Shown here: piece after piece, positions 5,347 to 32,740 of the stretch
Numbering within the stretch: position 1 is the stretch's first letter
How the letters are laid out: each line of letters opens with the position of its first letter
IMG/VR virus record: IMGVR_UViG_3300007538_000083
Span: 1-35,279 of that record
Strand: one strand, 5' to 3'
DNA: 35,279 bases
DNA from: a virus
The notes under the pieces: generated by a model
Databases searched by the model: none
Told to the model about the DNA's origin: nothing
What the model saw: the letters and a program-made list of their open reading frames with translations, nothing else
Translations under genes and position numbers: made by a program

Positions 5347-5361
5347 TAATTTTTTTTCGAA

Positions 5362-5369
5362 TATTTATA
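5362..5369 (+). promoter_or_regulatory. TATTTATA motif, candidate promoter of the 1685-aa gene
   Basis: Exact TATTTATA 23 bases before the ATG at 5385, in the short gap after the tape measure gene. Confidence 0.4.
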
Positions 5370-5384
5370 GTAAAATAAAGAATT

Positions 5385-8300
5385 ATGCCGGGTTCTCCAC
5401 AAAATAACAATTTTTCACAATTAAGTTTTTCGGGTACTAAAGCTCTAAGAGATTTATTATTAACCAAAAATTTACCAAATCCAGAAGGGATAGGACCATA
5501 TGGCACATATAATAATTCAACATATTCTGTTACATCTTTAAGTGTTAAAGACGTTATAGACCAACCAAGTGTTGAAGAAAATTCTGAGATGTTTTTAGAT
5601 AAACTTTATTTAAATAACGCTTATGGTCCAAAAGGTGGTTATTCAAATTTTATAAACATATATACTACTAGTCAAGGTGTAGCTAAAGTAAATGAAGGTG
5701 AATACCCTAATTTTACAGCACCAGAAACTGGAGCTGGTTTATTTGGTGAAAATCCATTTAGAACAGTAGGAAGATATTATTCACCAATAGATATACTATT
5801 AGGTGTATCAGCTGAAGGTTTATTATCACAAACATTATTACAAGATAGTCCATTACAACAGGCTGCAGCAATACAATTAAGAAGTGAATTTCAAGAAAGG
5901 ATAGCTCAAGAATTATATCAAGAAACCATAGGCAGACTAAGTTTTGTTGATGCTTTACAAGACCCAATAGACGCTTTAGATATTGTAACTGGTAGACAAC
6001 CATTAATTCAAAGAGATAATACAATAACACAACCTAAATCAATTGTAGGTCAAGGATTAGATTTTGTATCAAGAATTACCGGAGTTTATGTACCTTATTC
6101 TTATATTCCTGGTGATTACTTTGAACTTGAACCACCTAGAGGTTCAAGTGGAGTTGAAAAAGTTATTTCAGATATTACGGGTATATTAGGAAGTTTAATT
6201 GGGATACCAAGAAGAAGACAATCACCATCACAAAGATTTTTAGAGTATACTGGTAATGGTACTAAATCCAGGTTATTTAAAGCTATTAGATATAATAAAT
6301 ATGGTCCACAATATGGTGAGGGTGAACAAGCACGGACAGCTATAGGTGTTGGATTTGGTGAAGCTATAGATTTTATAGGTGGTGGAATATTAGGTTTTGG
6401 TAATTTCCCACCTAACCCACCACAGTATGTTGGTGGACCTAGAAATAGGATTGTTGATATGACAAGTCCACCAGAAAACACATATGCTGGTAAAAATTAT
6501 GTTCCGATATTTGGACCAGACGCAGTATCTAAAGAATTTGACCAAAACGATTATGATTTTGGTATGAAAGGTAGGACCTATACTAATCAAGGTGACACGG
6601 CGGCTGGTTTTACTTGGTATACTAATAAAACACCTGGTGGTGGTTTTCTAAACAGTATTCCATCTTTATTTAATAATAATGCAAATAACAATAGAGTAGG
6701 TCCACAAGAACCTGGTGCAACACAAGGACCAGAAGGGTCAACAGACGACACTACTAGATATCAAACACCAAATAATTACGATAGGACAAAATCATCAAAC
6801 TATTCATTTAGAGAAGATAGTTTGATGGATGTAACACAACAAATTATTGATTCAGTACCAAAAGGTGGAGCGGCTTTAAAGTCAGTTTCACACGCTATGA
6901 ACCAAGTTAGTAAAGTATTTAATGATGGGTATAAAGAATTGACTAAAGGTTCTAGAGTTAGAAGATTTGTAAATACAGACCCAACAAGTGGAAATGGTGT
7001 TGAAGAAGCGAGAGAATACTGTAGAGTATGGACTAAAGACGTACCTTATTACACTTATGATAGAATGGTTAGATTTAATACTAACCACAGAAAAGAAACT
7101 TATTCTGTTTTAGATAGTCCGTTTAATTTAAATATAGCTCCACATAGAACTGATGAATCTGGAAAAGGTTCAAGTAATATTGTTGATGGTAAAGTTAAAA
7201 AATATATGTTCTCAATAGAGAACTTAGCTTGGAGAACTAGTGGTGAACCTGGATTTACATATGATGATTTACCATCGTGTGAAAAAGGTCCGAATGGGGG
7301 TAGAATTATGTGGTTTCCACCTTATGATTTAAGTGTTGATGAATCTAGTAATGCTAATTGGACTGAAAACACATTTTTAGGTAGACCAGAACCAATATAT
7401 ACTTACAATAGTACAAATAGAACTGGTAGTTTAAGATTTAAAATAGTTGTTGACCACCCAAGTATTCTTAATTTATTAGTTAGGAAAGAATTAGAAAAAT
7501 TAGGACCAGAACAAACTGACGCTATAGTAGATTCATTTTTTGCTGGGTGTAAAAGATATGACATATTTGATTTAGCTAGGAAATGGAAACAATTTTCAGT
7601 TAATGAGTTACAATCTTTAAACGAACAACTTAACACACCTGGTTTATCAGATAGAGCAACTAGAGAAATTATAAATGAATCAGCGACAGAAGAACCACAA
7701 GAAGTAGAGAATGTAACTTTACCAACTTTACAACCAGGTTTAACATTTTATTTTGATAACGATTATCCAGACCCAAATACATCTAGAATTACATCAACTG
7801 TTAGTTATGTTGAATGTGCGGAAGGGAGTATGTCTAAATTTGGACAATATTTAGTACCTGGAGGAACATCATTTCAACCACAAATAGATAGAGCTGTTGA
7901 TTCACAAAAAGAAGGATTAAGTAATTTTTTCAATGATGTAGCTTATAATGAATATCAAGATGTTTGGCCTAAATTTGCTAGGGACTTAAAAACAATATTA
8001 GATTCGGGATTACATACTGTTACATTGAGTTTTAATGGTTCAGCTAGTTCTATCGCTACTAATGAATATAACAAAAAATTATCACAAAGAAGATTAGATT
8101 CTGTGAAACAAATGTTTAAAAACTATCAAATAGATGGGAAAAATGCATTTTCAGCTTACATTGATAGTGGTGATTTAAATATACCAGATGGTCAAGCTTT
8201 AGGTGAAGAATTTTGTAATAATGTTTTATATTCTGCGACAACTGGAACTGGTGAGGCTGGAGAAGTTGGAGCTGTTTATTCTGCTCCAGCAGCTAGTTGT

Positions 8301-10926: not shown

Positions 10927-13900
10927 ATGGCAAATGAAATATCTAATGGTAATAATGTATTAGTTGAATTTTCAGAAAACAATATTTTATTGGTAGACCC
11001 AAACAGAGTTTTTGAAGGTGGACGAGTAAAAGATAGATTGGTTAAATCTGAAGAATTGGTAATATATGCTAGTTTAAAAGCTAGAGTGGTACCAAGAAGT
11101 AAACTAATAAGTGGTGCCGGTGTAGATAATCAAACACCAGAGGCTTTTATTGATGTTTTTGAAGGTGAAATAAATTTTTTAAAACCACAAGGTAAAGATT
11201 ATTACACTAGTGATTGGACTGATACACAAACTGGTAAAGGATTTGGTACTGACGCTGGTTCACTAAACCAAAGGATACAAACTAGTACAATAGGAGCTAA
11301 TGGTCAATTATTATTTAATGAACAAATTAGAAATAAAATTGATTCTGAATCTTTTGGAATTAATAATATTTCAGTCTCATTAAGTAGAGCATTTACTCCA
11401 ATAGTAAATATAACTTTTACTGATGTAAGAGGACAAACACTTTTTGAACAAGGAGCTAATTCACCATACGCCGCTTTTTTTCAACTACCATATCCATTAT
11501 TTAAATTAAAATTAAAGGGATATTATGGTAAAGCGGTAGAATACCAACTAATGTTGGAAAAATTTAATGCATCATTTGATTCAACATCAGGAAACTATAA
11601 TGTAGTTTGTAATTTTAAAGGTAGAGTGACAGCATTATTAGCTGACATTACACTACAAGAAATGAGAGTAGCTCCATATATGTTTTCTAAATCATACCAA
11701 ATAGAGACTAATGAGGATGAAAAGTCTGATTTTATAACTAGTCGTGGAAGACAAATTTTAAGTCAAGTATATGCTGCTTACAAATCAAAAGGTTTAATTA
11801 GTGAAAATTTACCAGATATAACAATAGATGACTTAATACAAAGAGTAAAAGAGTTAGAAAATGATATAGAAAAAAAATTAAAAAGTTATAATTTAGATGC
11901 TTTGGATGATATTGAAACTTATGATAAAAGTTCAACATTATATAGAAATAAAATATTAACTTCTGGTGGTTGGAGGTCAACATATATTGATACAGATATA
12001 AATTCAGTTAGTGGTCCACAAGTTGATATATCTACAGACGTAGTATATTACCAATTTAAAAAACAATATAGGGATAATCCAGTAAAACAAAAAGAAGCTT
12101 TCGAAAATATAAAAAAAAGAATAAAAGAAGGTAATGAATCTTTATTAAGAAATAAAACTTTTGGCAATGGAGGTAAACAATCCATACCTGTCGATATAAA
12201 ATTAGATGATTTTATAACAACACCACCTACAGGGTTTGAAGATAGTACGGGTGATTGGTTTAGGTTTGATGTTTTTGAAGATAAAATAGGCAAAATAATA
12301 ACAGTATTTAATACAAAAAGGACACAAATTGAAAATGAATTAACTTCAGCTGTAAATTCTGTAGTTATAGAATCATTAGGGTTTAATCCAACGATAAGAA
12401 ATATATTTGCTATATTTATATCACACGCTGACACATTTTTAAGATTGATGGATGAAACACATTCAGAAGCTTTTGCGGTTAGAGATAGTTTAGATAGATT
12501 AAATGCTGTTAAAGGACCTGGTAATCCTAGTAGTGTTGATGAAGACGTTATAGTTTACCCTTGGCCACATTATTATATTGAAGAAACTGATGAAAATGGA
12601 CCACAGTATGTTAGTACTTACCCAGGTTCACCAAAAGTATTAGGTCAAACAAAGGCTTATGATAATATATTGTGGCCAGAAGTTTATTTTGTGGAAGAAT
12701 TTTTTAAAGCTCAACTTATCAGTAATTCTGATACCAAACCAGAATTTTCAGTTAATAGCGTTGGTGGTAATTGGATACCTATTACATCATTTGAGTTAGG
12801 TGAAGAACAAGTTTATATTAATAAATCTGTAGTTCCATTCAATTATGAAATTTGGGATAGGTCTACAGTATTTTCTGTTTTTTCTGGTTTATCAACTAGA
12901 TTAAAAGAAAATGTTAGTAAAAATGCATTTTACGAATTATCAAAAATAGAGGCTTTTAATATAAAAGAATATTTAAGTGGTTTGCTTGACCTTAATGAAT
13001 TACTTAAAAATCAAAACTTTAATTACAATACTTATTTAGATTATTTACAAGAAATATCACCATTAAACAATTACCAACTCTTAATAAGAGACCAATTTAA
13101 TACACCATATATTAGGACTAAAGTAAATGATTCTAGTTTTACATTGACACCTTTTAACGAATTTAAAAATTTAACTTATCAATTAAATGATGGTGACATA
13201 CAAGAAACTTTGGATAAATTAAATTCTGTTTTAATTTCTGGAAACATTAGAAATGAAAATATTTTGGAAACTTTTCCTTTTTCACATTTTGTTTCAACAT
13301 CACCAAACACATCTTGGACTGTAAATAATTTAGCTGCTGGTATAGATATATCTAGTTATGAAAATTTAAATAATATTTCACAAAGTATTAATTACCAAGC
13401 AGACCAAAAAGTTTTCGCTTCAATAATACCAAATAATGCAACATCTTTAGTTGTAGAAAACATACAATTTTATACTGATGGTGATTGGGCAACAAAAACA
13501 GCATTAACAGAATTATCTAATAAGGTACAAGATAGGTTTGTTAATAATCAAAATACTAGAAATTCTTGGGAAACTTTTTATGGTACGGTACAATATCAGG
13601 AGGGAACAGAATACGTGTGTAATCAAAACTTAATTACAACAGAAGGTAATTTAGAATATGGTAATGATTACAATGGTAAGATTTTTTCTAAACAAATAAC
13701 TTCATTATTGAATACACCTTATTTTATTAATAGTTTAGTTGAAGGTGTTTCTAACGAAATTAATAATGTTGATAATCCATATAAATCAGCGGCTTACTTA
13801 TTTTTGAATTCATTACCACTACCAACTTTAAGAGAAAAAACATTATTAACGAATCAATCAACCTATAATATATATGGTGATTACATAGCTAAAACGTTAA

Positions 13901-16900
13901 ATCAAGTATCTGCGGTACACCCATTACCTAGTGCTTGGATTTTAAAATATGGTGCTATATGGCATAGATATAAAGAATTTATTGACAATGGTAATGATTT
14001 TTTAAGTGACGTATGGGATAATTTTGATGCTAATACATACTTCAACAATACAAATGGTTTAGGGTACACGTATGATTTAAATGTGGGAGTTAATAATGCA
14101 TTAATTAGTTTTGGTGGACAATGGTCTCCAGCACCAACCACAGACCAATTAAATTTAGGGTTTTATCCAGAACTAAATAACTATATTTATTATTTTGTAA
14201 CTGGTGAACTTTTGTATGATGGTTTAAATGTTAGTGGTTTCCCAATAACAGATAATCAAATTAATCAATTAATATTACAAGAATCTTTATATTTAAAAAA
14301 CGCTGAAGAACTTACAATAACTTCAATAGATACGGACCCAATACAAACAAAAGCTAATTTATGGTTTAATTATTATGACTTAACTAGAGAAGGTTATTTA
14401 AGTGGGTATACAACAGCTCAATATTTATTATTTCCATGTGAGGGAGGTATGAAAAAATCACAATTAGAATTTGAAGTTGAAAGTCCGTATTATTTAAAAA
14501 ATAATCAAAATGTGACTAATGGTGCTGTTAGATTAGTTTGGGGATTATCAAATTATGGTTATTTTGAACATAAACCAAATACATTACCTAGACCAGACCA
14601 ATATTTAAAAAGAATATTAAGTGACCAAGAAGAACAGTTGTCTTTTGACATTGTAAATAATGAAGAGTATGCTTCAATAGAAGAACTTTTTGATATATTT
14701 ACACCAGAAATATTAGATAGGTTTGAAGAATATTTTTTAAACTTTACAAAATATTTTGACCCAGACCCACAGGTATTTTATGATGAGGAAGATATTATGT
14801 CTTTGAACTTTCAAAAATTATTAAGAGAATTTTTAAAGATAGACCAAGATAAAGTTAATACAACACAAAGTAACACACAGTTAAGTTATAATTTAGGTAA
14901 AACACAGTTGGATAAAATAAATGTGACACTAAGACAATTCTTATCACACCAAACTGCTTTTAATTTCTATAACCCTAAAGATGTGGATATATTAGTATTT
15001 AAGAGTATAGCACCTTCTTCGGGAGCTACACAATATATTAATTTTGGAAACTATCAAGGAAATTTACCACCAGATATTTCATTAACTCAATCAACCACAT
15101 TATATCCGAATGAATGGAAAGAATTAAGAAAAAATGTTGGGTTTTATAGTGATTCATTATCTTCGGGATATACTTTAAATTTAATATATAATGATGCTGG
15201 AAATTATGTCACTGAATTTTTTAGAGAGTTTAATATAGATTTTAATGTTACTAATATTAAAAATTTAAGAAAAATTATAAGAATGTATGTGACAGCTAGA
15301 ATAGAAGCTGGAGCTGACCAAAATATCGATAATAGAGAATTTTTACAAAGGATTAAAACAGAAGTTATTGAGTCCTGGGAATTTAGTCAGTTTGACTATC
15401 TAAATCAATTATTCATACAACTTCAAAAAGTTCTACCAGAGACCACAGAAACAGAAATAGAAGAGTTTACTAATAATTCAACATATGAAAGTGATGAAAA
15501 TAAGTTGGAACAATATCAAGTATTTAAAACATTAAATGATAAATGGGTTAGTGGTGAAGAATTCAGTAACAAATACTTATTCGAAGATTTTCTATTTTAT
15601 GATGTTGCAAATAGAGATGTGGGAGATAAAGCAATTATTACTACTGATGCTATCATGAGTTTTGGTAGTCCTAACAATGCAAAAGCAAGTTTATTAACAA
15701 TTATAGGTTCTTTGTTACAAGGTAATTTCTTTAATTTTATGGGCATGCCTAGTTACATCAATTTTTACGGTATGACATCCCAAGGAGATACCCCTATACC
15801 AAAGTTAAGTACACAGGATGAAGCTGATGCAATTTTTGGTACTCATTTGGAAGTGGATAGTTTGGATTCTGGACCTAAATTTTTATGTCAGTATGTAGGA
15901 CCACCATCTACACAACTTGGTGGTGAATTAAGTAAAAAAAGTAAGTATGAAAACGATTCATTTTTATTAGGCAGGACTGCACAAAATCCTTTGTTGTCTA
16001 CAAATTATGACCCACAAAAAAATAATAAAGTAGTTGCGTTTGCGGTTGATTTTGGAATACAAAGTCAAGGAATTTTTAAAGGAATAGCTTTAGACCAAAG
16101 TCAATTTAAAAATACTTCAGAATCATTTGCTGTTACAGAGTCTATGGCTCAATCAGCTAATGATAAAAGTATTTTAACTCAAGGATTAAGTTTATTTAAC
16201 ATATATAAAACTAGGTCTTATACTTGTAAAATAGAAGCTATGGGAAATGTATGTATACAACCAACCATGTATTTTTCACTTAGACATATACCTATGTTTA
16301 GTGGTCCATATTTAATTTTAGATGTAGAACACAATATACAACCAAATACAATGACAACTACGTTTACTGGTGTTAGAGTACCATTTCACAAAATGCCTGA
16401 AATAACACAATTAGTAGCTAAGGTTAATCAAACATTTTTAAATAAAGTAAGGAAAAAAGTTAAAGAAGAAAAAGCGATACAAAGACAAGGTGGTTTTGAA
16501 CCAGAAAGCACCACAGAAAGTGAATCAGTTAAAAGCGGTAATTCTAATTTTAGAGGTAGAGATGACGATAAACTAGATTATATTATTATTCATGTTACCG
16601 CTGGAATAAACTATGGTAATGACCCAGTTTCCACAATAAATCAACAACATATAAATAGAGGATTTGCTGGTATTGGTTATCATTTTTTAATTGGTAGAGG
16701 AGCTGAAGGAAATGATAATAGTCCAGAAGGTACTTTGTATGGTGCTAGACCAGATAATAAAATTGGTGCTCACACTACGGGACATAATAGTAGGTCTTTA
16801 GGTGTTAGTATGATAGCGAATTGTGATAAAATAGGTGTGTATGGTAAAGATGAAGGAGGTGACCATCCAACTAGAATACAAAAAGAAACACTGGAATGGA

Positions 16901-17325
16901 CATTATTGTGGTTATTATTTAAAACAGGATTACTTAAAATGGGTAATAATATGTCAGTTATTGTTAAAACAAGAGAATCAGACGTTGAAGTTACTAACCC
17001 AAAAGTTTTGGACAATACTGGTGGTATAGGCTCAGATTTATGGATGAATATTTTAAAAGGACATAATGAATTTGCTAACAAAAGGTGTCCTTGTTTTAGA
17101 GTAGAAAGAACTTTAAGTGATACAAGTCCTGGTAGTTTAATGAGTAAACTAAGAGTTAAACTAAAAAAAGCTTTGGAAGATAGTAACTTTACACCAGGTC
17201 CAGATTATGGGCAAACATCAATGATTAGGTATTTTTCTAAAAAAGCTAAAGAAAAAGGTTGGGTACCAAGTCCATGGTCAACATCTACTGGACAATTCGG
17301 TGGAAGAGATTTAGCTGTAAACTAA
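10927..17325 (+). CDS. giant baseplate hub protein with C-terminal zinc amidase (cell-wall hydrolase)
   Basis: A 2132-residue protein. The N-terminal part (1-260) is beta-rich with SVSLSRAFTPIVNITFTDVRG and YPLFKLKLKGYYGKAVEYQL, resembling hub/tube-like domains. A very long middle part is unrecognised. Around 1740-1830, SYTCKIEAMGNVCIQPTMYF and ISGPY-type text (FSGPYLILDVEHNI) look like the end of a gp27/gpD-type hub. Residues 1880-2100 form an N-acetylmuramoyl-L-alanine amidase of the T7-lysozyme/PGRP type: IIIH (His1889), GYHFLIGRG (Tyr1918), GAHTTGHN, and GHNEFANKRCPCF (His2046, Lys2052, Cys2054). The spacing His to Tyr (29) and His-Lys-Cys (0, 6, 8) equals that of T7 lysozyme His17/Tyr46 and His122/Lys128/Cys130, so an active zinc amidase is likely. 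This is the functional counterpart of the T4 gp5 lysozyme on the tail needle, here fused to the hub. Its role would be local opening of peptidoglycan during infection. Confidence 0.75.
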   Translation: MANEISNGNNVLVEFSENNILLVDPNRVFEGGRVKDRLVKSEELVIYASLKARVVPRSKLISGAGVDNQTPEAFIDVFEGEINFLKPQGKDYYTSDWTDTQTGKGFGTDAGSLNQRIQTSTIGANGQLLFNEQIRNKIDSESFGINNISVSLSRAFTPIVNITFTDVRGQTLFEQGANSPYAAFFQLPYPLFKLKLKGYYGKAVEYQLMLEKFNASFDSTSGNYNVVCNFKGRVTALLADITLQEMRVAPYMFSKSYQIETNEDEKSDFITSRGRQILSQVYAAYKSKGLISENLPDITIDDLIQRVKELENDIEKKLKSYNLDALDDIETYDKSSTLYRNKILTSGGWRSTYIDTDINSVSGPQVDISTDVVYYQFKKQYRDNPVKQKEAFENIKKRIKEGNESLLRNKTFGNGGKQSIPVDIKLDDFITTPPTGFEDSTGDWFRFDVFEDKIGKIITVFNTKRTQIENELTSAVNSVVIESLGFNPTIRNIFAIFISHADTFLRLMDETHSEAFAVRDSLDRLNAVKGPGNPSSVDEDVIVYPWPHYYIEETDENGPQYVSTYPGSPKVLGQTKAYDNILWPEVYFVEEFFKAQLISNSDTKPEFSVNSVGGNWIPITSFELGEEQVYINKSVVPFNYEIWDRSTVFSVFSGLSTRLKENVSKNAFYELSKIEAFNIKEYLSGLLDLNELLKNQNFNYNTYLDYLQEISPLNNYQLLIRDQFNTPYIRTKVNDSSFTLTPFNEFKNLTYQLNDGDIQETLDKLNSVLISGNIRNENILETFPFSHFVSTSPNTSWTVNNLAAGIDISSYENLNNISQSINYQADQKVFASIIPNNATSLVVENIQFYTDGDWATKTALTELSNKVQDRFVNNQNTRNSWETFYGTVQYQEGTEYVCNQNLITTEGNLEYGNDYNGKIFSKQITSLLNTPYFINSLVEGVSNEINNVDNPYKSAAYLFLNSLPLPTLREKTLLTNQSTYNIYGDYIAKTLNQVSAVHPLPSAWILKYGAIWHRYKEFIDNGNDFLSDVWDNFDANTYFNNTNGLGYTYDLNVGVNNALISFGGQWSPAPTTDQLNLGFYPELNNYIYYFVTGELLYDGLNVSGFPITDNQINQLILQESLYLKNAEELTITSIDTDPIQTKANLWFNYYDLTREGYLSGYTTAQYLLFPCEGGMKKSQLEFEVESPYYLKNNQNVTNGAVRLVWGLSNYGYFEHKPNTLPRPDQYLKRILSDQEEQLSFDIVNNEEYASIEELFDIFTPEILDRFEEYFLNFTKYFDPDPQVFYDEEDIMSLNFQKLLREFLKIDQDKVNTTQSNTQLSYNLGKTQLDKINVTLRQFLSHQTAFNFYNPKDVDILVFKSIAPSSGATQYINFGNYQGNLPPDISLTQSTTLYPNEWKELRKNVGFYSDSLSSGYTLNLIYNDAGNYVTEFFREFNIDFNVTNIKNLRKIIRMYVTARIEAGADQNIDNREFLQRIKTEVIESWEFSQFDYLNQLFIQLQKVLPETTETEIEEFTNNSTYESDENKLEQYQVFKTLNDKWVSGEEFSNKYLFEDFLFYDVANRDVGDKAIITTDAIMSFGSPNNAKASLLTIIGSLLQGNFFNFMGMPSYINFYGMTSQGDTPIPKLSTQDEADAIFGTHLEVDSLDSGPKFLCQYVGPPSTQLGGELSKKSKYENDSFLLGRTAQNPLLSTNYDPQKNNKVVAFAVDFGIQSQGIFKGIALDQSQFKNTSESFAVTESMAQSANDKSILTQGLSLFNIYKTRSYTCKIEAMGNVCIQPTMYFSLRHIPMFSGPYLILDVEHNIQPNTMTTTFTGVRVPFHKMPEITQLVAKVNQTFLNKVRKKVKEEKAIQRQGGFEPESTTESESVKSGNSNFRGRDDDKLDYIIIHVTAGINYGNDPVSTINQQHINRGFAGIGYHFLIGRGAEGNDNSPEGTLYGARPDNKIGAHTTGHNSRSLGVSMIANCDKIGVYGKDEGGDHPTRIQKETLEWTLLWLLFKTGLLKMGNNMSVIVKTRESDVEVTNPKVLDNTGGIGSDLWMNILKGHNEFANKRCPCFRVERTLSDTSPGSLMSKLRVKLKKALEDSNFTPGPDYGQTSMIRYFSKKAKEKGWVPSPWSTSTGQFGGRDLAVN

Positions 17326-23666: not shown

Positions 23667-24677
23667 ATGAGTAAAAGTAAAAATTTATTTAAGGAGAGAA
23701 TTCCATATAAACCATTTGAATACCCAGAATATTATACTGAAGGTTGGATGAAACAGGCTCAGGCATTTTGGTTACACACTGAAATTTCAATGCAAGGTGA
23801 TGTTAAAGATTGGAAAGAAAATTTAACTGAATCTGAAAAAAATTTAGTAGGGAATATCTTATTAGGTTTTGCACAAACTGAATGTGCGGTAAGTGATTAT
23901 TGGACAACTATGGTTACCAAATGGTTTCCAAAACACGAGATTCGTCAAATGGCTATGATGTTTGGTTCACAAGAAACTATTCATGCTGTTGCTTATTCTT
24001 ATCTTAATGAAACTCTTGGTCTTGAAAATTTTGAAGCATTTCTACACGAAGAAGCTATATCTAACAAATTTGAGTTATTGATGAATACTAGTTCTGATTA
24101 TGACCACAATGATTTAATAACAATACCTACAGCTAGAAAAGAAGTTGCTAGAAGTTTAGCTATATTTTCTGCATTTGCAGAAGGTGTTTCACTATACTCA
24201 TCGTTTGCTGTTCTTTATTCATTTCAATTGAGAAACTTATTAAAGGGTATTGGCCAACAGATGAAATGGTCTGTGAGAGATGAATCATTACATTCAAGAA
24301 TGGGTTGTAAACTATTCAATCATATGTGTGAAGAATATCCAGAGTTGAGAGAAGAAAGCAAAGAAGATATTTACTCAGCAGCAAAATTAATAGTAGATTT
24401 AGAAGAAAAATTTATTGATAAAATGTTTGAAATGGGTGATTTAGAAAATTTATCAGCTTCGGATTTGAAAGAATTTATCAAACAAAGAACTAATGAAAAA
24501 TTAAAAGAATTGGGTTACGGTGAACTATTTATCGTTAACCAAGAAAAATCTAGTAATCTTGATTGGTTTTATCATTTGACAGGTGGTCTTACACACACTG
24601 ATTTTTTTGCCATTAGACCTACAGATTATTCTAAGGCAGGTGAAGATGACGATTGGGATGAAGATTCTTTATTTTAA
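23667..24677 (+). CDS. nrdB: ribonucleotide reductase small subunit, class Ia
   Basis: A 336-residue protein carrying the diiron-tyrosyl radical cofactor of class Ia ribonucleotide reductase. Ligands can be read in order: Glu39 in LHTEIS, Glu103 and His106 in SQETIHAVAY, with radical Tyr110 at the expected spacing, Glu172 in FAEGVS, and Glu206 and His209 in RDESLHSRMG. The tail ends WDEDSLF, the aromatic/acidic end that docks to NrdA. All essential residues are present, so the enzyme should be active. It makes dNTPs for phage DNA. NrdA follows after 20 bases. No intron or inteins seen. Confidence 0.94.
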   Translation: MSKSKNLFKERIPYKPFEYPEYYTEGWMKQAQAFWLHTEISMQGDVKDWKENLTESEKNLVGNILLGFAQTECAVSDYWTTMVTKWFPKHEIRQMAMMFGSQETIHAVAYSYLNETLGLENFEAFLHEEAISNKFELLMNTSSDYDHNDLITIPTARKEVARSLAIFSAFAEGVSLYSSFAVLYSFQLRNLLKGIGQQMKWSVRDESLHSRMGCKLFNHMCEEYPELREESKEDIYSAAKLIVDLEEKFIDKMFEMGDLENLSASDLKEFIKQRTNEKLKELGYGELFIVNQEKSSNLDWFYHLTGGLTHTDFFAIRPTDYSKAGEDDDWDEDSLF

Positions 24678-24697
24678 CAAAAAAATTTAAATTAAAT

Positions 24698-26470
24698 ATG
24701 AAAAATTATGCAGAACATTTAGGTTGGGAAGTTGACGTGGACTTCCCAAGTTGGGCAAACACACACGTATATATACAAACAATTTCTAATGGTTATTTAC
24801 TTCCAGGTGAGAAACCAAAGGATGCGTATTGGAGAGTTGCTACTACAGTAGCTAAAAGGTTAGGTAAACCACAATTAACTACTAAATTTTTTGATTACAT
24901 TTGGAAAGGGTGGTTATGTTTAGCTACACCAGTTTTATCTAACACAGGAACTGAAAGAGGACTACCTATTTCTTGTTTTGGTATTGATGTTGCAGATTCA
25001 ATTGTAGATATTGGTACTAAAAATCTTGAAATGATGTTATTGGCAAAACATGGTGGTGGTGTTGGTATTGGAATCAATCAAATCAGACCAGCTGGTTCAT
25101 CTATTACTGATAATGGTACTAGTGATGGTATTGTTCCATTTTGTAAAATATATGATTCTACAATTCTTGCAACTAATCAAGGTGCAGTAAGAAGAGGAGC
25201 AGCATCAGTAAATGTTAATATAGAACACGGTGATTTTGATGAGTGGTTAGAAATTAGAGAACCTAAAGGTGATGTTAATCGTCAATCTTTGAATCTTCAT
25301 CAATGTGTTGTAATAGGTGATAAGTTTATGAGAAAACTTGAGGTTGGTGATAAAGAATCTAGAAAAAAATGGGCTAATTTACTTAAAAAACGTAGACAAA
25401 CCGGTGAACCTTATATTATGTATAAGGGGAATGTTAATAAACAGAACCCAGAATCTTACAAGAAAAATGGTCTTAAAGTATTTATGACAAACATTTGTTC
25501 AGAAATTGTTTTACATACAGATGAATCACATTCATTTGTTTGTTGTCTTAGTTCATTGAATTTATCAAAATATGATGAATGGAAAGATACTGATTTAATT
25601 TACACAGCTACTTGGTTCTTGGATGGTGTTCTTGAAGAATTTATACAAAAGGCAAAATATAGAAAAGGATTTGAGAACTCAGTTCGTTCAGCAGAAAAAG
25701 GTAGAGCTTTAGGTTTAGGTGTTCTTGGTTGGCATACTTATTTACAACAAAAAGGAATTCCATTTGAGGGGTTACCAGCTCAATTTGAGACTAGAAGAAT
25801 TTTTGGTCAAATTCAAACTGAATCTGAACAAGCTTCTAGAGATTTGGCTACAGAATATGGAGAACCTTTATGGTGTGTTGGTACTGGGATGAGAAATACA
25901 CATCTAAGAGCTGTTGCACCAACGGTATCAAATTCAAAATTAGCTGGGGGTGTTTCAAGTGGTATTGAACCTATTCCAGCTAATGTTTATACGGAACAGA
26001 GTGCGAAAGGAACTTTTATTAGAAAAAATAAAGAACTAGAAAAAATATTTAGAAAGATTGGTATTAATAACAAAGAAACTTGGGATAAAATATTAAGTGA
26101 TGGTGGTTCAGTTCAAGATATAAAAGAATTGGACGATTGGGGTTATATGAACAATAAGATAACACATATTGATGAAAAAAGTAATTCACATTTAGATTTT
26201 GTACCAGTTAAAGAAGTTTTTAAAACATTCAAAGAAATAAATCAATTAGAATTAGTTAGACAAGCTGGTGTAAGACAACAATTTATTGACCAATCAGTAT
26301 CATTAAATCTTGCGTTTCCAAAAGAAGCGACACCAAAATGGATTAACCAAGTTCATTTAGAAGCTTGGAGACAAGGAATAAAAACTTTATATTATGTTAG
26401 AACAGAGAGTGTTTTAAGAGGTGATATAGCTAATAATGCGATGCAGGAATGCGTTAGTTGCGAAGGTTAA
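24698..26470 (+). CDS. nrdA: ribonucleotide reductase large subunit, class Ia, without ATP cone
   Basis: A 590-residue catalytic subunit. Active-site residues are present: Cys93 (ISCFGI), Asn265-Cys267-Glu269 in TNICSE, Cys283 (CCLSSLNL), the radical-transfer Tyr565-Tyr566 (TLYYVRTES), and the C-terminal thiol pair Cys585/Cys588 (ECVSCEG). GGGVGIGI and VRRGAASVNV fit the substrate-binding core. The family usually has 750 aa or more; here the N-terminal ATP cone that switches the enzyme off with dATP is missing, so dATP feedback should be lost. The ATG at 24698 follows an A-rich gap without Shine-Dalgarno. NrdB lies upstream, and a small Cys-rich protein gene starts 10 bases after the stop. 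Confidence 0.94.
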   Translation: MKNYAEHLGWEVDVDFPSWANTHVYIQTISNGYLLPGEKPKDAYWRVATTVAKRLGKPQLTTKFFDYIWKGWLCLATPVLSNTGTERGLPISCFGIDVADSIVDIGTKNLEMMLLAKHGGGVGIGINQIRPAGSSITDNGTSDGIVPFCKIYDSTILATNQGAVRRGAASVNVNIEHGDFDEWLEIREPKGDVNRQSLNLHQCVVIGDKFMRKLEVGDKESRKKWANLLKKRRQTGEPYIMYKGNVNKQNPESYKKNGLKVFMTNICSEIVLHTDESHSFVCCLSSLNLSKYDEWKDTDLIYTATWFLDGVLEEFIQKAKYRKGFENSVRSAEKGRALGLGVLGWHTYLQQKGIPFEGLPAQFETRRIFGQIQTESEQASRDLATEYGEPLWCVGTGMRNTHLRAVAPTVSNSKLAGGVSSGIEPIPANVYTEQSAKGTFIRKNKELEKIFRKIGINNKETWDKILSDGGSVQDIKELDDWGYMNNKITHIDEKSNSHLDFVPVKEVFKTFKEINQLELVRQAGVRQQFIDQSVSLNLAFPKEATPKWINQVHLEAWRQGIKTLYYVRTESVLRGDIANNAMQECVSCEG

Positions 26471-26478
26471 TATTTATA
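26471..26478 (+). promoter_or_regulatory. TATTTATA motif after nrdA
   Basis: Exact TATTTATA directly after the nrdA stop codon (26468-26470) and only 10 bases before the ATG at 26481. Too close to serve as a usual leader with a long 5' end, but identical to the other copies. Confidence 0.3.
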
Positions 26479-26480
26479 AT

Positions 26481-26663
26481 ATGTGTTTAAAGTTCGATAA
26501 AGAAGATTTTTATTTGGATGACAATAATAAAATGGTGTTAACAGAAAAATACCATATAAAAAAAGGTTCTTGTTGTGGTGGTAAGTGTGTACATTGTCCA
26601 TACTGGCCACCACATCAAAAATTTAATAAAGAGTTAAGAGAAGATGTATACGTTAAATCTTAA
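26481..26663 (+). CDS. small Cys-rich protein (DUF5522-like)
   Basis: A 60-residue protein with a dense cluster of possible metal ligands: GSCCGGKCVHCPY, with Cys31, Cys32, Cys36, His38 and Cys39, preceded by MVLTEKYHIKKG. From memory this resembles the short bacterial DUF5522 family, whose proteins have the pattern of a Tyr-His-x-Lys/Arg-Arg-Gly stretch followed by CCGxGCxHCPY and are frequent in Bacteroidota. The function of that family is unknown; the cluster suggests zinc or another metal. An in-frame ATG at 26436 exists within nrdA, but the ATG at 26481 fits better because it follows nrdA and gives the family's start. The gene overlaps the next by 20 bases. Confidence 0.7.
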   Translation: MCLKFDKEDFYLDDNNKMVLTEKYHIKKGSCCGGKCVHCPYWPPHQKFNKELREDVYVKS

Positions 26664-26895: not shown

Positions 26896-27354
26896 ATGGC
26901 AGAAAGAGAAACATTTGGAATTGATTTTCCTTTTCAGGATAGTGTGTTTGGGGATTACTTAAAAATGACAGAAACCCCCGAACAAGAAATTAAAGCTGAT
27001 TTAATTCATTTGTTATTAACTAGAAAAGGAAGTAGGTACTTTTTACCAGATTTTGGTACTTCTTTATATGAATATATTTTTGAACCATTAGATGCTCCTT
27101 CTTTTGCTTCTATAGAAGCTGAAATTAGAGAACAAGTAATAAAATATATACCTAATTTAAAATTAACCAATATTGAAGTTACAAGTGCTTTGGAAGCTGA
27201 AGAATTACCAGGTACGATAGTAGCTGATAATGACCCTCGTGTTTATAGAGTTGCAGGTCAAGGTACTAAAGAACATACAGCTAAAGTAAGATTAGACTAT
27301 ACTATAAACAGTGATGCTTTTGAAACACGAGACTTTGTAATAATTAATATTTAA
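26896..27354 (+). CDS. gp25: baseplate wedge protein (gp25-like)
   Basis: A 152-residue protein of the gp25/lysozyme-like wedge family, found in phage baseplates and in type VI secretion (TssE). The hallmark is EIKADLIHLLLTRKGSRYF-type text: ADLIHLLLTRKGSRYFLPDFG, followed by TSLYEYIFEPLD. This is the I-x-x-L-L-x-T-x-x-G-S-R-x-x-x-P-x-F-G pattern. The rest has beta strands (HTAKVRLDYTI). It links the wedge to the tube and sheath. Length compares with T4 gp25 (132 aa). The gp6-like gene starts 2 bases after its stop codon, the same gene order as in T4. Confidence 0.93.
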   Translation: MAERETFGIDFPFQDSVFGDYLKMTETPEQEIKADLIHLLLTRKGSRYFLPDFGTSLYEYIFEPLDAPSFASIEAEIREQVIKYIPNLKLTNIEVTSALEAEELPGTIVADNDPRVYRVAGQGTKEHTAKVRLDYTINSDAFETRDFVIINI

Positions 27355-27356
27355 TA

Positions 27357-29210
27357 ATGGCAAATAATAAAATATCTTATTCTGAAAGAGATTTTGTTAG
27401 TTTAAGGGGAGAACTATTAAACTATGTACAAGACCAATATCCAGACTTAATTCAAAACGCTAATGATGCGTCACTCTTTTCTGTTTTTCTTGATTTGAAT
27501 GCGGCTATTGCTGATAACTTACATTATCATATAGATAGAAGTTTACAAGAGACAGTTTTACAATATGCAAATCAAAGGTCATCATTATTTAACATTGCTA
27601 GAACCTATGGTTTAAAGATACCTGGTAATAGACCTTCAGTGTCTGTTTGTGACTTTAGTATTACAGTACCAGTTTTACAAACTTCTGGTGGTGGTGATAA
27701 AGAAGATTTTAGATATTTGGGTACACTTAGAAGAGGTTCACAAATAAAAGGTGCGGGACAAGTATTTGAAAATATACACGATATTGACTTTTCAGTACCA
27801 TTTGATGCTACTGGTTTCCCAAACAGAACAAAAGTGCCTAATTTTAACAATAATGGTAATATTGTTAGTTATACAATAACAAAACGAGAAGTTGTAATAA
27901 ACGGAATTACAAAAGTTTTTAAACGAGTTATAACAAATAATGATGTGTTACCGTTTTTAAAAATATTTTTACCAGAGAAAAATATTTTAGGTGTAACTGG
28001 AGTAATTCAAAAAGATGGTACTAATATACAAGCAGTTCCAAAAGCTACTGAATTTTTAACTTCACAAAATAAATGGTATGAAGTTGATGCTTTAGCACAA
28101 GATAAAGTTTTTGTTATAGATACAACTAAACAATCAGATTTACCTGGTGTAAAAGTAGGTAAATGGCAAACTGTAAATCAAAGATTCACTACAGAATATA
28201 CACCAGAAGGTTTCTTTTATTTAACTTTAGGTGGTGGAACTAGTAGTTCACAAACTACATTAGATGATTTTACAACCCAAGGGTTTACAATGGATTTAAG
28301 TAGGTATATGAATAATTTTTCTTTGGGTAGTTCACCTAGAGCTAACACAACATTATTTATTCAATATAGAGTTGGTGGTGGAAAAGCTACAAATATAGGT
28401 CCAAATACACTAAATACTTTTGGTACTATAGATTTTGTTTTAAATGGTCCAAACATTAATATAAACAGGTCAGTTACTGAGTCTTTGAGTGTTAATAATG
28501 TTACAGCTGCTATAGGTGGAAATAACCAACCAACTGTAGAAGAAATTAGAAATTATATTGGTTTTAATTTCGCTTCACAAAAAAGAGCGGTTACTCTTTC
28601 AGATTATAAAGTTTTAATGGACACAATGCCTTCTATTTTTGGTGCACCAGCTAAATCTGGTGTTATGGAAGTAGAAAATAAAGTTATGGTTAAATTACTA
28701 TCATACAATACCGATGGTTCATTAACATCAAATGTTAGTACTACATTAATGAACAATATTAGTGAGTACTTATCAGATTATAGAATGTTAAATGATTACA
28801 TTACTATTGAACCAGCGGAAGTTATTGATTTATCATTAGAAATTGATTTATTGATTGACCCATCATTTAATAGTGGTGTTATAATAACAAATGTGATTAA
28901 CACAACTAATGAATTTTTTGCTCCTAGAAACAGGGAAATGGGTACCGATGTATTTGTTGGTGAATTAATTAAAGATTTGGTAGCACAAGACGGAGTAATA
29001 AACTTAATTGACTTAAGAATATACAATAAAGTTGGGGGAGAATATTCAAGTAATGAAGTATCACAAAGATATATTGATGATGCGACTAAACAAATAGAAT
29101 TAATTGACGGAGTTATATTCGCACAACCAACACAATCCTTTCAAGTAAGATATCCAACTAAAGATGTTTTGGTTAGAGTTAAATCAACAAATCAAACAAC
29201 AGTATCTTAA
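27357..29210 (+). CDS. gp6: baseplate wedge protein (gp6-like, baseplate J family)
   Basis: A 617-residue protein. The N-terminal part has the gp6/baseplate-J signature: an SERDFVSLRGELLNYVQDQ-type segment, then DLNAAIADNLHYHIDRSLQET and the RSSLFNIARTYGLKIPGNRPS stretch. The middle is a beta domain, and the C-terminal third contains SQKRAVTLSDYKVLMDTMPS, DYRMLNDYITIEPAEV, EIDLLIDPSFN and NREMGTDVFVGELIKDLVAQ, as in T4 gp6 and phage P2 gpJ relatives. Pairs of this protein form the ring linking wedges around the hub. T4 gp6 has 660 aa. It follows gp25, as in T4, and precedes the 1151-aa protein. Confidence 0.9.
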   Translation: MANNKISYSERDFVSLRGELLNYVQDQYPDLIQNANDASLFSVFLDLNAAIADNLHYHIDRSLQETVLQYANQRSSLFNIARTYGLKIPGNRPSVSVCDFSITVPVLQTSGGGDKEDFRYLGTLRRGSQIKGAGQVFENIHDIDFSVPFDATGFPNRTKVPNFNNNGNIVSYTITKREVVINGITKVFKRVITNNDVLPFLKIFLPEKNILGVTGVIQKDGTNIQAVPKATEFLTSQNKWYEVDALAQDKVFVIDTTKQSDLPGVKVGKWQTVNQRFTTEYTPEGFFYLTLGGGTSSSQTTLDDFTTQGFTMDLSRYMNNFSLGSSPRANTTLFIQYRVGGGKATNIGPNTLNTFGTIDFVLNGPNININRSVTESLSVNNVTAAIGGNNQPTVEEIRNYIGFNFASQKRAVTLSDYKVLMDTMPSIFGAPAKSGVMEVENKVMVKLLSYNTDGSLTSNVSTTLMNNISEYLSDYRMLNDYITIEPAEVIDLSLEIDLLIDPSFNSGVIITNVINTTNEFFAPRNREMGTDVFVGELIKDLVAQDGVINLIDLRIYNKVGGEYSSNEVSQRYIDDATKQIELIDGVIFAQPTQSFQVRYPTKDVLVRVKSTNQTTVS

Positions 29211-29284: not shown

Positions 29285-32200
29285 ATGCCTAAATCATATA
29301 GGATTAAAGCTGAACCTAATCAAGACAAAAATATTTTTGTTAACTTAGAACAAGACTTTGACCAATTAGAAATATTAAGTTTAAAGATAATTAAGTCTGA
29401 GGTTTATTCTAGAACCTGTGCAGATTATGGTGTCATAGTTGGTCGTGCTCAAGCAAATGGTGGATTTGGAATACCTAACGCTAAAATATCTATTTTTGTA
29501 CCAATAACTGATGAAGATGCTGAAGATGAGGTAATTTCTCAATTATATCCATATCGTAAAGTTACAGATAAAAATGAAGATGGGTATAGATATAATTTAT
29601 TACCTAAAGAATCTGAAAGTTGTAATCATAAAGCGACTGGTAACTTTTTTACAGCAAAAGAAGTTATAAATAACCCAGTTATATTAGAGGTTTTTGAAAA
29701 ATATTACAAATATACCACAAAAACTAATGAAAGTGGTGATTATATGTTGTGGGGTGTACCTTTGGGAAATCAAACAATTCATGCAAGTATAGATGTTAGT
29801 GATATTGGTTGTTATTCTATGAGACCTTATCAATTTATTAGACAAGGTGTCAGTGCATCTAGATTTGAAAGTGCTTTGGAATTTAAAAGTTCTGAAAATT
29901 TGGATACGTTACCACAAATAGTTTTACAAAATAAGGCAATACAAGTAGTTCCATTTTGGGGTGATGAGGATTTGTGTGGGATTGGTATAACTAGAGTAGA
30001 TTTTGATTTAAGAGATTCTGGTGTAGAAATAACACCTAGTTCTACATTTATTGGTTCAATAATTACTGATGATGATAATAATTATGTTTCTATAAGTGGA
30101 GTACCATCTAAAGAACAAGGACAATTATGTAATTTAACTACTGGTACTGGTACTATTGAAGCTATTAGACACACCATATTAAAAGAAGAAGATGGTTCTA
30201 CACCTAAATTAGAAAGATTTAATTTAGATAATGGTGGAAAGGTAATTGATGGTAATGGAGCTTGGGTAACACAGTTACCTATGAACTTAGATTTTATAGT
30301 GACTAATGAATATGGTCAACAAATAATATCTGATGACCCAAAAGTAGGGATACCTACTAGAGCAAAATATAGATTTAGGATATCTTTTGATGGTACAGGG
30401 GGTGAGGTAAGAAGTGGTAGATATTTGGTACCCAATATAAGGGAATATACTGATGAAGAAAATTATCCAAAATCTTATTCGTTTTCAGATAAATTAGTAG
30501 ATTATCCAGAAGTTTCAACACCACAAGATGTTTATGGGTCACCAGCTAACAAAGCTACAGATTATTTTTATGAATTTGTACCAAACAGAGTATATAGTGT
30601 AGCTAATTTTATAGATAATTATAGACAAAACGTAAATCAAGGTGGTAACAGAAGTGCTAATAGTAGATGGAGATTTTTAGGTATTAAAACCATAAATCCT
30701 GCACCCGAATCAAGGTGTACTGATATTACTAAAGAATTTCCAGTTAATGATGTTTTTAGGGGTGGTACTAGTAAATTTTCTACAACACAGATAACAAGGT
30801 TATTACAAGTTATAACTCTTACAATAGCTGCTTGTTTAATAAGTTACCAGCTATTTTCATTGTTATTTCAATATGGTCAGTTCGCTTTAAGGACTGTTCT
30901 ATCAATTAGTTTATTTACTGCTGGTACTACAGTAGTAGGAACTATTGTAGATACACCGATAGGTCTAATTTTACTAGGTTTATTCACAGCCGAGTTCTTT
31001 TTATCAATTGCAACAGCGATATTTGGCCCTATATTAATAATACCTATAGCTAAGGCGTTAATAGAAAATTTTTATGTTGTTAGACAATTATATAATTATC
31101 CAAACTGTGAACCATGTTTTTGTGGTACTTCTTTTAAATTTTTTGTTAGTAGGTTCATTTCTGTCCCGGAGGAAGATAAAATTTTACAAGAAACAATTGC
31201 TGATGACCCAAATAGTATAAATAATTGTAATGAGGAACCATATATGGAAGGTTTTGGTAGTGATGAGGAAAATGCTTTTTTTTGGCAAGGAAGGGAGGAT
31301 GAATATCCAAAAGGTTGTTATGTATTACAATTTAGAAGAGGTGTATTTATTAGTTTTATTACTACGCTCGCGCTTATAATACCAGCTGGATTTATACCAT
31401 TCGCTGGTGGTGCTATAGTATATGGAGCTCTTGCTGTTGGACTATCAATCCTTTTTGGAACTTGTTTTGACAGTGTTTATAGAATGTATAAAAGTTTAAA
31501 CCAATGGAGAATATTAGCTAATATATATACTGGGTTATGTGAGGGTGTGTTTAACATGAAGTTTAGTAATAATTGGATAAATGGCACTTTGTATTTTCCT
31601 AAATTTATTGTTAAAAAACAAAAAATAGATGATGAAAATGGTCAAGAAATAACACCAATAGTTAAATACGACACTCGATTGATATATGAGGATACAAATG
31701 AAAATAATACATACTACTATTATAGAAGTTGCCCATTTAGTGAACAAGGATTTACATATAGTAACCCTTCTGTAGATTTATCATCACTTACTACACCATT
31801 AAAAGCTCCACATAAAGGAATAAACTTTCCAACTACTATAGTTGATTTAGGACCATTAGACCCATGTATTACAGAATTATGTAAAGAACAAAATAGTGAC
31901 GATACGTGTGTTATAATAGATAATTTAAAATCAAGTAGTTTCCAACCAAGTGAAGAGTTATTAGGGATGTTAATAGAAAGAAAAATTATCGCTATAAATT
32001 CCTATAGGGAGTTTGTGTGGTCTGGAGTCAATAAATGGTTTGGTGCTGATAGTAAACCTGGAGCTTCATATAATAGAAATTTAGGTAATGATAGATTAGG
32101 GAGTGCTGGAGATAATACTAATCCAGGCCCATGGAGAAATAGAGTAATAGATGGTGACATTGCACAACTTTTAGCGACTAATAACCAAATGGGGATATCA

Positions 32201-32740
32201 GTATTTACCAAAGATGATGAAGACCCATATTATGGAAGTCAAACATCGTGGGGTCAAGAATATAGTAATATTAGTGGCCAAGAAAATTACTTAACAGAGA
32301 GTTTCACTCAAATACCATTAATTCCTCGTAACAATGATTTAATTAATTGTCTTAAAGGTGGAATTTTTGGGATAAAACAAACACAAGTAGTTCCATATTA
32401 TGGGTGGAATTCTAGTGCTAGTTATGGCACATTAAATAATGATTATGACTTTGATGGTCAAATCTTAGTTAAAGGATACCAACAAGGTATAACTTATACA
32501 ACACCAAATAGGACAGATACAGCCACTTGGGAAACTCCAGCATATTATGATTCAAATGAAGAGTTACCAAATTACGGTTATTTTAACTCCATACCGACCA
32601 TAGTACCAACATCTACAGGGTCTAATTTTATATTGGGGACGGGTCTATATTTTTATTTTGGTTTAAGACAAGGAGCTTCATCGTATGATAGATTCATAAA
32701 CGAGTATTTACCACCTAAAGATGATGGACAGGAATTATAA
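29285..32740 (+). CDS. large virion protein with membrane helices, in the gp7 position
   Basis: A 1151-residue protein immediately after gp25 and gp6, where T4 has gp7 (1032 aa). The N-terminal part is beta-rich: VIVGRAQANGGFGIPNAKIS and TNESGDYMLWGVPLGNQTIH resemble a carboxypeptidase-regulatory-like (Ig-type) domain, residues about 45-175. Two hydrophobic clusters follow: about 505-592 (LLQVITLTIAACLISYQLFS; GLILLGLFTAEFFLSIATAI) and about 688-735 (ISFITTLALIIPAGFIPFAG), perhaps five or six helices. Between them are CxxCxC (Cys608, Cys611, Cys613) and an acidic loop. The C-terminal 400 residues are polar and Tyr-rich (GVNKWFGADSKP). T4 gp7 has no membrane helices, so this protein is not a plain copy of it. 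It could insert into the host membrane during infection, or be membrane-anchored before assembly. The next gene overlaps its end by 20 bases. Confidence 0.6.
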   Translation: MPKSYRIKAEPNQDKNIFVNLEQDFDQLEILSLKIIKSEVYSRTCADYGVIVGRAQANGGFGIPNAKISIFVPITDEDAEDEVISQLYPYRKVTDKNEDGYRYNLLPKESESCNHKATGNFFTAKEVINNPVILEVFEKYYKYTTKTNESGDYMLWGVPLGNQTIHASIDVSDIGCYSMRPYQFIRQGVSASRFESALEFKSSENLDTLPQIVLQNKAIQVVPFWGDEDLCGIGITRVDFDLRDSGVEITPSSTFIGSIITDDDNNYVSISGVPSKEQGQLCNLTTGTGTIEAIRHTILKEEDGSTPKLERFNLDNGGKVIDGNGAWVTQLPMNLDFIVTNEYGQQIISDDPKVGIPTRAKYRFRISFDGTGGEVRSGRYLVPNIREYTDEENYPKSYSFSDKLVDYPEVSTPQDVYGSPANKATDYFYEFVPNRVYSVANFIDNYRQNVNQGGNRSANSRWRFLGIKTINPAPESRCTDITKEFPVNDVFRGGTSKFSTTQITRLLQVITLTIAACLISYQLFSLLFQYGQFALRTVLSISLFTAGTTVVGTIVDTPIGLILLGLFTAEFFLSIATAIFGPILIIPIAKALIENFYVVRQLYNYPNCEPCFCGTSFKFFVSRFISVPEEDKILQETIADDPNSINNCNEEPYMEGFGSDEENAFFWQGREDEYPKGCYVLQFRRGVFISFITTLALIIPAGFIPFAGGAIVYGALAVGLSILFGTCFDSVYRMYKSLNQWRILANIYTGLCEGVFNMKFSNNWINGTLYFPKFIVKKQKIDDENGQEITPIVKYDTRLIYEDTNENNTYYYYRSCPFSEQGFTYSNPSVDLSSLTTPLKAPHKGINFPTTIVDLGPLDPCITELCKEQNSDDTCVIIDNLKSSSFQPSEELLGMLIERKIIAINSYREFVWSGVNKWFGADSKPGASYNRNLGNDRLGSAGDNTNPGPWRNRVIDGDIAQLLATNNQMGISVFTKDDEDPYYGSQTSWGQEYSNISGQENYLTESFTQIPLIPRNNDLINCLKGGIFGIKQTQVVPYYGWNSSASYGTLNNDYDFDGQILVKGYQQGITYTTPNRTDTATWETPAYYDSNEELPNYGYFNSIPTIVPTSTGSNFILGTGLYFYFGLRQGASSYDRFINEYLPPKDDGQEL

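Follow-up and report, generated by a model that had tools for sequence, protein, structure and literature searches.

The window, that is, the whole stretch of 35,279 nucleotides analysed here (IMG/VR record IMGVR_UViG_3300007538_000083), is a fragment of a T4-like myovirus. Its tail genes code for a tube protein (PHROG 4542), a T4-type baseplate hub protein (PF12322), a putative tape measure, a protein at the gp53 position, gp25 and gp6. Directly 3' of the gp25-like and gp6-like genes, where an earlier note on this DNA had placed it, lies the gene for a large protein which we call P0001. The genes needed for the argument are the following.

3235 to 5346, plus strand: putative tape measure without transmembrane-like segments, assigned by its position after the tube and hub genes, as in phage immuto; maximum Kyte-Doolittle (KD) mean 1.19
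26896 to 27354, plus strand: gp25-like baseplate protein (PF04965, E 1.2e-11)
27357 to 29210, plus strand: gp6-like baseplate protein (PHROG 219, E 2.6e-14)
29285 to 32740, plus strand: P0001, a single open reading frame of 1151 codons (1151 amino acids), member of an undescribed family directly after gp6

Another large gene of the tail region (10927-17325, plus strand) codes for a 2132-residue protein at the hub position with an Amidase_2 domain at its C-terminal end (residues 1881-2006); its product is a predicted cell-wall hydrolase fused to the tail.

A 19-residue Kyte-Doolittle mean of 1.6 or more was taken as a stretch of transmembrane (TM) strength, and an approximate insertion-energy scale was used for P0001 as a cross-check only. 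P0001 has five such stretches in two clusters and none elsewhere in the protein.

Cluster 1: residues 509-527 (KD 1.99), 550-568 (KD 1.88) and 571-589 (KD 2.28)
Cluster 2: residues 686-704 (KD 2.19) and 710-728 (KD 2.02)

They match the two hydrophobic clusters which the earlier note had put at about residues 505-592 and 688-735 (nucleotides 30797-31060 and 31346-31489). There are 4 charged residues in 506-592 and 2 in 686-735. The charge depletion in P0001 alone is not decisive; 6.5% of the background proteins also reach 5 charges or fewer over an 88-residue segment. The hydrophobicity is indeed unusual, as had been supposed: among 92 non-redundant neighbouring proteins of at least 300 residues from related loci, five have a single such stretch and no protein has more. 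The only other proteins in the window which reach KD 1.6 are two small ones encoded by overlapping genes on the plus strand upstream of the tail tube gene (88-366 and 359-754), with 2 and about 3 TM-like segments. They gave no match in PHROG and one sub-threshold match in Pfam, for the first gene only, and are possibly holin-like or host-membrane proteins.

Sequence searches of Pfam, PHROG, NCBIfam and the PDB gave no match to P0001. Three different family members were also searched against 50,697 phage records, and none of them turned up a relative. In viral contigs, five scans that used family members as queries gave 77, 78, 9, 39 and 80 loci, some recurring between scans; these loci, about 280 with recurrences included, lie on contigs of up to 413 kb. 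Genome contigs gave three more members, two in Bacteroidota MAGs and one on a contig labelled Mycoplasmatota. The 281 loci were reduced to 116 distinct full-length proteins and these to 76 representatives below 70% identity, with lengths from 1,058 to 3,022 amino acids. To judge from these scans the P0001 family is undescribed, large and widespread. A likely further member is A0A8S5LA66, a protein without assigned function from the metagenomic Myoviridae sp. ctPuP5, which a Foldseek comparison aligns with the P0001 model (E 3.7e-45, 25% identity over 936 alignment columns). The gp6 gene is found directly upstream, the arrangement of T4 gp7, in 230 of 246 members, and a gp25 gene lies no further than 3.5 kb away in 174 of 179; because gp6 is so regularly the neighbour, the family belongs to the baseplate operon.

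It had been proposed in the earlier note to look for homologues and to see if the helices are conserved. Every one of the 76 representatives has at least one stretch with KD of 1.6 or more, with few strays elsewhere in the proteins. The stretch lies at about residue 455-550 in 75 of them and at 435 in one shorter protein, nearly always just after a conserved N-terminal region of about 460 amino acids. Conservation in 25-residue blocks is mostly 0.5-0.77 in the N-terminal region and 0.08-0.32 in the hydrophobic blocks, which suggests that hydrophobicity is kept and not sequence. The best 19-mer has 0 or 1 charge in 53 of the 76 and at least 2 in the other 23, several of which look amphipathic. 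In most relatives large soluble parts enclose only one or two hydrophobic stretches. The layout with two clusters is confined to seven representatives forming one clade, that of the window (support 100/99 in a tree of the N-terminal region); two of the seven reach KD 1.6 at three places, one at four and the others at five. In nearly all aligned representatives of other clades a longer soluble insert is found at the place of the second cluster.

An AlphaFold2 model of P0001 was made from a 23-sequence alignment (mean pLDDT 62). Both hydrophobic clusters are placed in long helices, so the helix prediction which the earlier note had called for came out as anticipated. The long helices of the full-length model are 496-551, 557-594, 685-701 and 708-752, with pLDDT by ten-residue block of 54-86, mostly 70-86. 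When residues 463-841 were folded alone the helices were 493-551, 554-594, 685-701 and 708-757, and the local confidence was somewhat higher in most of them. Outside the helical module the model is beta-rich. The parts of the gene are as follows.

29420 to 30034, plus strand: N-terminal transthyretin/CarboxypepD_reg-like domain, residues 46-250 (AlphaFold2 model compared with the PDB)
30761 to 30937, plus strand: helix A, residues 493-551, holding the hydrophobic residues 506-530; counterpart in nearly all representatives (AlphaFold2)
30944 to 31066, plus strand: helix B, residues 554-594, pairing with helix A in hairpin 1 (AlphaFold2, hydropathy)
31106 to 31123, plus strand: cysteine motif C-x-x-C-x-C (C608, C611, C613; alignment)
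31337 to 31387, plus strand: helix C, residues 685-701, arm of hairpin 2, found only in the window's clade (AlphaFold2, aligned representatives)
31406 to 31555, plus strand: helix D, residues 708-757, pairing with helix C in hairpin 2 and leading into the C-terminal core (AlphaFold2)
31532 to 32737, plus strand: conserved C-terminal core, residues 750-1151 (column conservation in 76 representatives)

In the model residues 46-250 adopt a transthyretin-like fold. With VIA-align this region, modelled with moderate confidence, matches carboxypeptidase N (2nsm) with Z 9.1 over 79 residues (rmsd 2.2), 3mn8 with Z 8.8 and 3e8v with Z 8.1; PF13620 matches in relatives of P0001 are weak and below the cut-off. 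The likeness to CarboxypepD_reg and transthyretin-like proteins is limited to this one domain. C608 and C611 are invariant in the 23 aligned relatives, and all three cysteines are invariant in 12 proteins of the window's clade. W764, G767, G856, F1125-G1126 and G1130 of the C-terminal core are near-invariant in the 76 representatives. In the window's clade the four long helices are predicted to pair as two hairpins, A-B and C-D. A fold search with the helical module alone gave matches at chance level only, the best of these weak matches being soluble helical bundles.

The earlier note named P0001 a baseplate wedge protein. This turned out to describe its position only, since its sequence matched neither gp7 nor another wedge protein. 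P0001 resembles T4 gp7 in gene place after gp6, in size (gp7 has about 1000 amino acids) and in having a segment of TM strength, and it could be imagined that P0001 is a divergent gp7 whose hydrophobic part is the gp7 segment. We consider this very improbable. The two have no sequence or profile similarity (hhalign of the family against six gp7 sequences gave a best probability of 0.4%), and gp7 has one segment near the C-terminus, at 886 of 1032 residues, compared to about 510 of 1151 in P0001. A PHROG scan of P0001, in which the gp7 family (PHROG 964) was looked for, returned no tail family. The Foldseek and VIA-align matches of the AlphaFold2 model did not include gp7, although such lists cannot exclude it. 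It is another protein, six genes downstream of P0001, that resembles the large protein found at the gp7 position in Flavobacterium phage immuto, Microcystis phage Mel-JY01 and LR756508 (E 1.7e-13). As a gp7 candidate this downstream protein also has a TKG-type motif; the T4 gp7 profile aligns in the expected region with a probability of 0.2%, which is not significant. As far as the evidence goes, P0001 may be called a baseplate-operon protein.

The comparison with gp7 is instructive in another way. T4 gp7 (L144, 7061-10159) has a hydrophobic segment at residues 886-904 with KD 2.07, five homologues keep it with KD 1.74-1.89, and the stretch FVHPVGFGF-ITLLT is conserved in the six proteins. The T4 gp7 record predicts an integral membrane domain. 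Nevertheless this wedge protein is soluble; it is monomeric in solution (PMC3004832) and is included in solved baseplate structures, so its segment is a standing false positive of transmembrane prediction. The argument of the earlier note that wedge proteins are normally soluble thus fails as a diagnostic, and because soluble gp7 has one, a single hydrophobic stretch does not tell whether a baseplate protein enters a membrane.

This precedent leads to the reading that the helices of P0001 form a buried structural core, a hydrophobic bundle within or between baseplate protomers which never meets lipid, as must be the case for the gp7 segment. We regard it as a serious possibility, somewhat short of an even chance. 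The long helices of P0001 resemble soluble bundles, and an internal core would be a natural setting for a helix that has a conserved soluble part on either side. For the relatives with a single stretch the gp7 precedent would be adequate, but it appears strained for the two hairpins found in the window's clade: they hold about 6 charges over roughly 137 residues and amount to far more hydrophobic surface than one segment, and two or more such segments were found in none of the background proteins.

The reading which we tentatively favour, by a narrow margin, over a buried core is that P0001 contains a host-membrane-inserting module of a tail-tip or baseplate structural protein; also for this reading the sequence and model data leave the probability below one half. 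Segments of TM strength, such as a membrane-inserting tail protein should keep, occur in all 76 representatives, and those of P0001 are predicted to be helical. P0001 would be a structural protein of large, possibly "Far-T4"-type, T4-like myoviruses, and presumably present in the virion. The conserved N- and C-terminal soluble parts would dock it in the baseplate, and between them would lie the hydrophobic helical module, which has a single helix or a few in most relatives and two antiparallel hairpins in the window's clade. The assembled tail would shelter the helices until it engages the host, at which point the hairpins may insert from one side into a membrane of the envelope, where they would anchor the baseplate and perhaps help to line the path of the DNA, elsewhere a job of the tape measure. 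The proposal of the earlier note, that the helices may stay buried until the baseplate opens and then enter the host membrane as a DNA channel, is supported in part: hydrophobic helices well above background are conserved in a protein of the baseplate module, and a DNA channel is a conceivable role.

Hairpins can insert without moving soluble domains across the bilayer, and insertion is for this reason favoured for the window's clade. One helix between 460 and more than 600 soluble residues is another matter: insertion from outside would require that a folded domain crosses the bilayer. A single segment between two large soluble parts thus fits single-pass insertion from outside poorly, and for many relatives outside the window's clade we favour an interfacial or buried helix. 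It should also be noted that the predicted helices of P0001 are up to 59 residues long, longer than a bilayer needs, which counts against insertion.

How the DNA of contractile-tailed phages passes the inner membrane is not settled, and it is usually the tape measure that is credited with membrane entry. The tape measures of T4 (gp29, maximum KD 2.2) and immuto (several stretches, up to 2.24) have hydrophobic stretches, and none were found when the baseplate-locus proteins of immuto were searched for them. The annotated tape measure of immuto lies at the place equal to 3235-5346 of the window. In ten marine and freshwater genomes of the family the putative tape measures have no hydrophobic stretch (maximum KD 0.74-1.29), and in twelve rumen-type relatives the tape measures are longer and carry moderate stretches (maximum KD 1.42-2.03); the clade names marine, freshwater and rumen refer to the presumed metagenome type of the records. 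The freshwater clade has a tape measure without a hydrophobic stretch, yet mostly one segment in its P0001 homologue. On these grounds a simple replacement of the tape measure by P0001 homologues in every clade can be rejected. The contrast would fit a shift of the membrane role from the tape measure to P0001 in the aquatic clades, without proving one, and it does not extend to the rumen clade, where the tape measures keep moderate stretches. That a baseplate protein instead of the tape measure supplies membrane-entering helices which line or anchor the DNA path, the window's clade having grown two hairpins in P0001 and having none in the tape measure, is in our judgement rather unlikely. P0001 is not itself a tape measure; it lies after gp6 and not between the tube and hub genes, and it is beta-rich outside the helical module, with no long helical rod.

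Hydrophobic segments in tail proteins are known from other systems. Those of T5 pb2 are thought to form an outer-membrane channel (PMC10038345), and the diffocin tape measure CD1366 has five predicted TM helices (PMC10996793). Both are proposed to enter the target membrane; these two, gp29 and the immuto tape measure all differ from P0001 in gene, place and domain make-up. Cis13, a baseplate-bound protein of a thylakoid-anchored contractile injection system, has a TM helix that places the machine in a membrane (PMC8894136), and by its description it may be comparable to P0001. It differs in being trimeric and fibre-like, with a C-terminal helix that anchors it in the membrane of its own cell.

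The several TM-like helices, and the presence in the window of the two small TM-like proteins at 88-366 and 359-754, might also suggest that P0001 is a membrane protein of the infected cell, an assembly platform on the host inner membrane or an exclusion factor, and not, or not only, a part of the virion. This is quite unlikely in our opinion, given that the gene keeps its position immediately behind gp6 in the baseplate operon over a large divergence, and given the large conserved transthyretin-like and C-terminal parts, which are typical of structural proteins. Explanations of other kinds are left with a very small share.

With a hydrophobic helix as its most constant feature, this family of baseplate-operon proteins offers a concrete and testable alternative to the tape measure. 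If the helices are buried, P0001 gives, together with T4 gp7, a strong warning that transmembrane predictions in baseplate proteins mislead. In either case it is a conserved marker protein for an abundant group of uncultured phages.

The viruses carrying this family probably infect Bacteroidota, because two members lie on MAG contigs of that phylum and the nearest relatives of gp6 and of the ribonucleotide reductase are found in Flavobacterium and Cellulophaga phages. A Bacteroidota host has been predicted for Far-T4-like viruses (PMC7198788), to which the present virus only possibly belongs. The member on the contig binned as Mycoplasmatota (L083, CATEWF010000002.1) may owe that label to mis-binning, since related members point to Bacteroidota phages. 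The reductase of the window is encoded by two genes (23667-26470), as in the relative L016 at the equal genome place; at that place another relative, L003, has a single reductase (5212-7119) which matches the B12-dependent type (PF21995), so that one class of reductase seems to have been exchanged for another. A small gene for a cysteine-rich DUF5522 protein (26436-26663, plus strand) overlaps the end of the reductase gene in the window.
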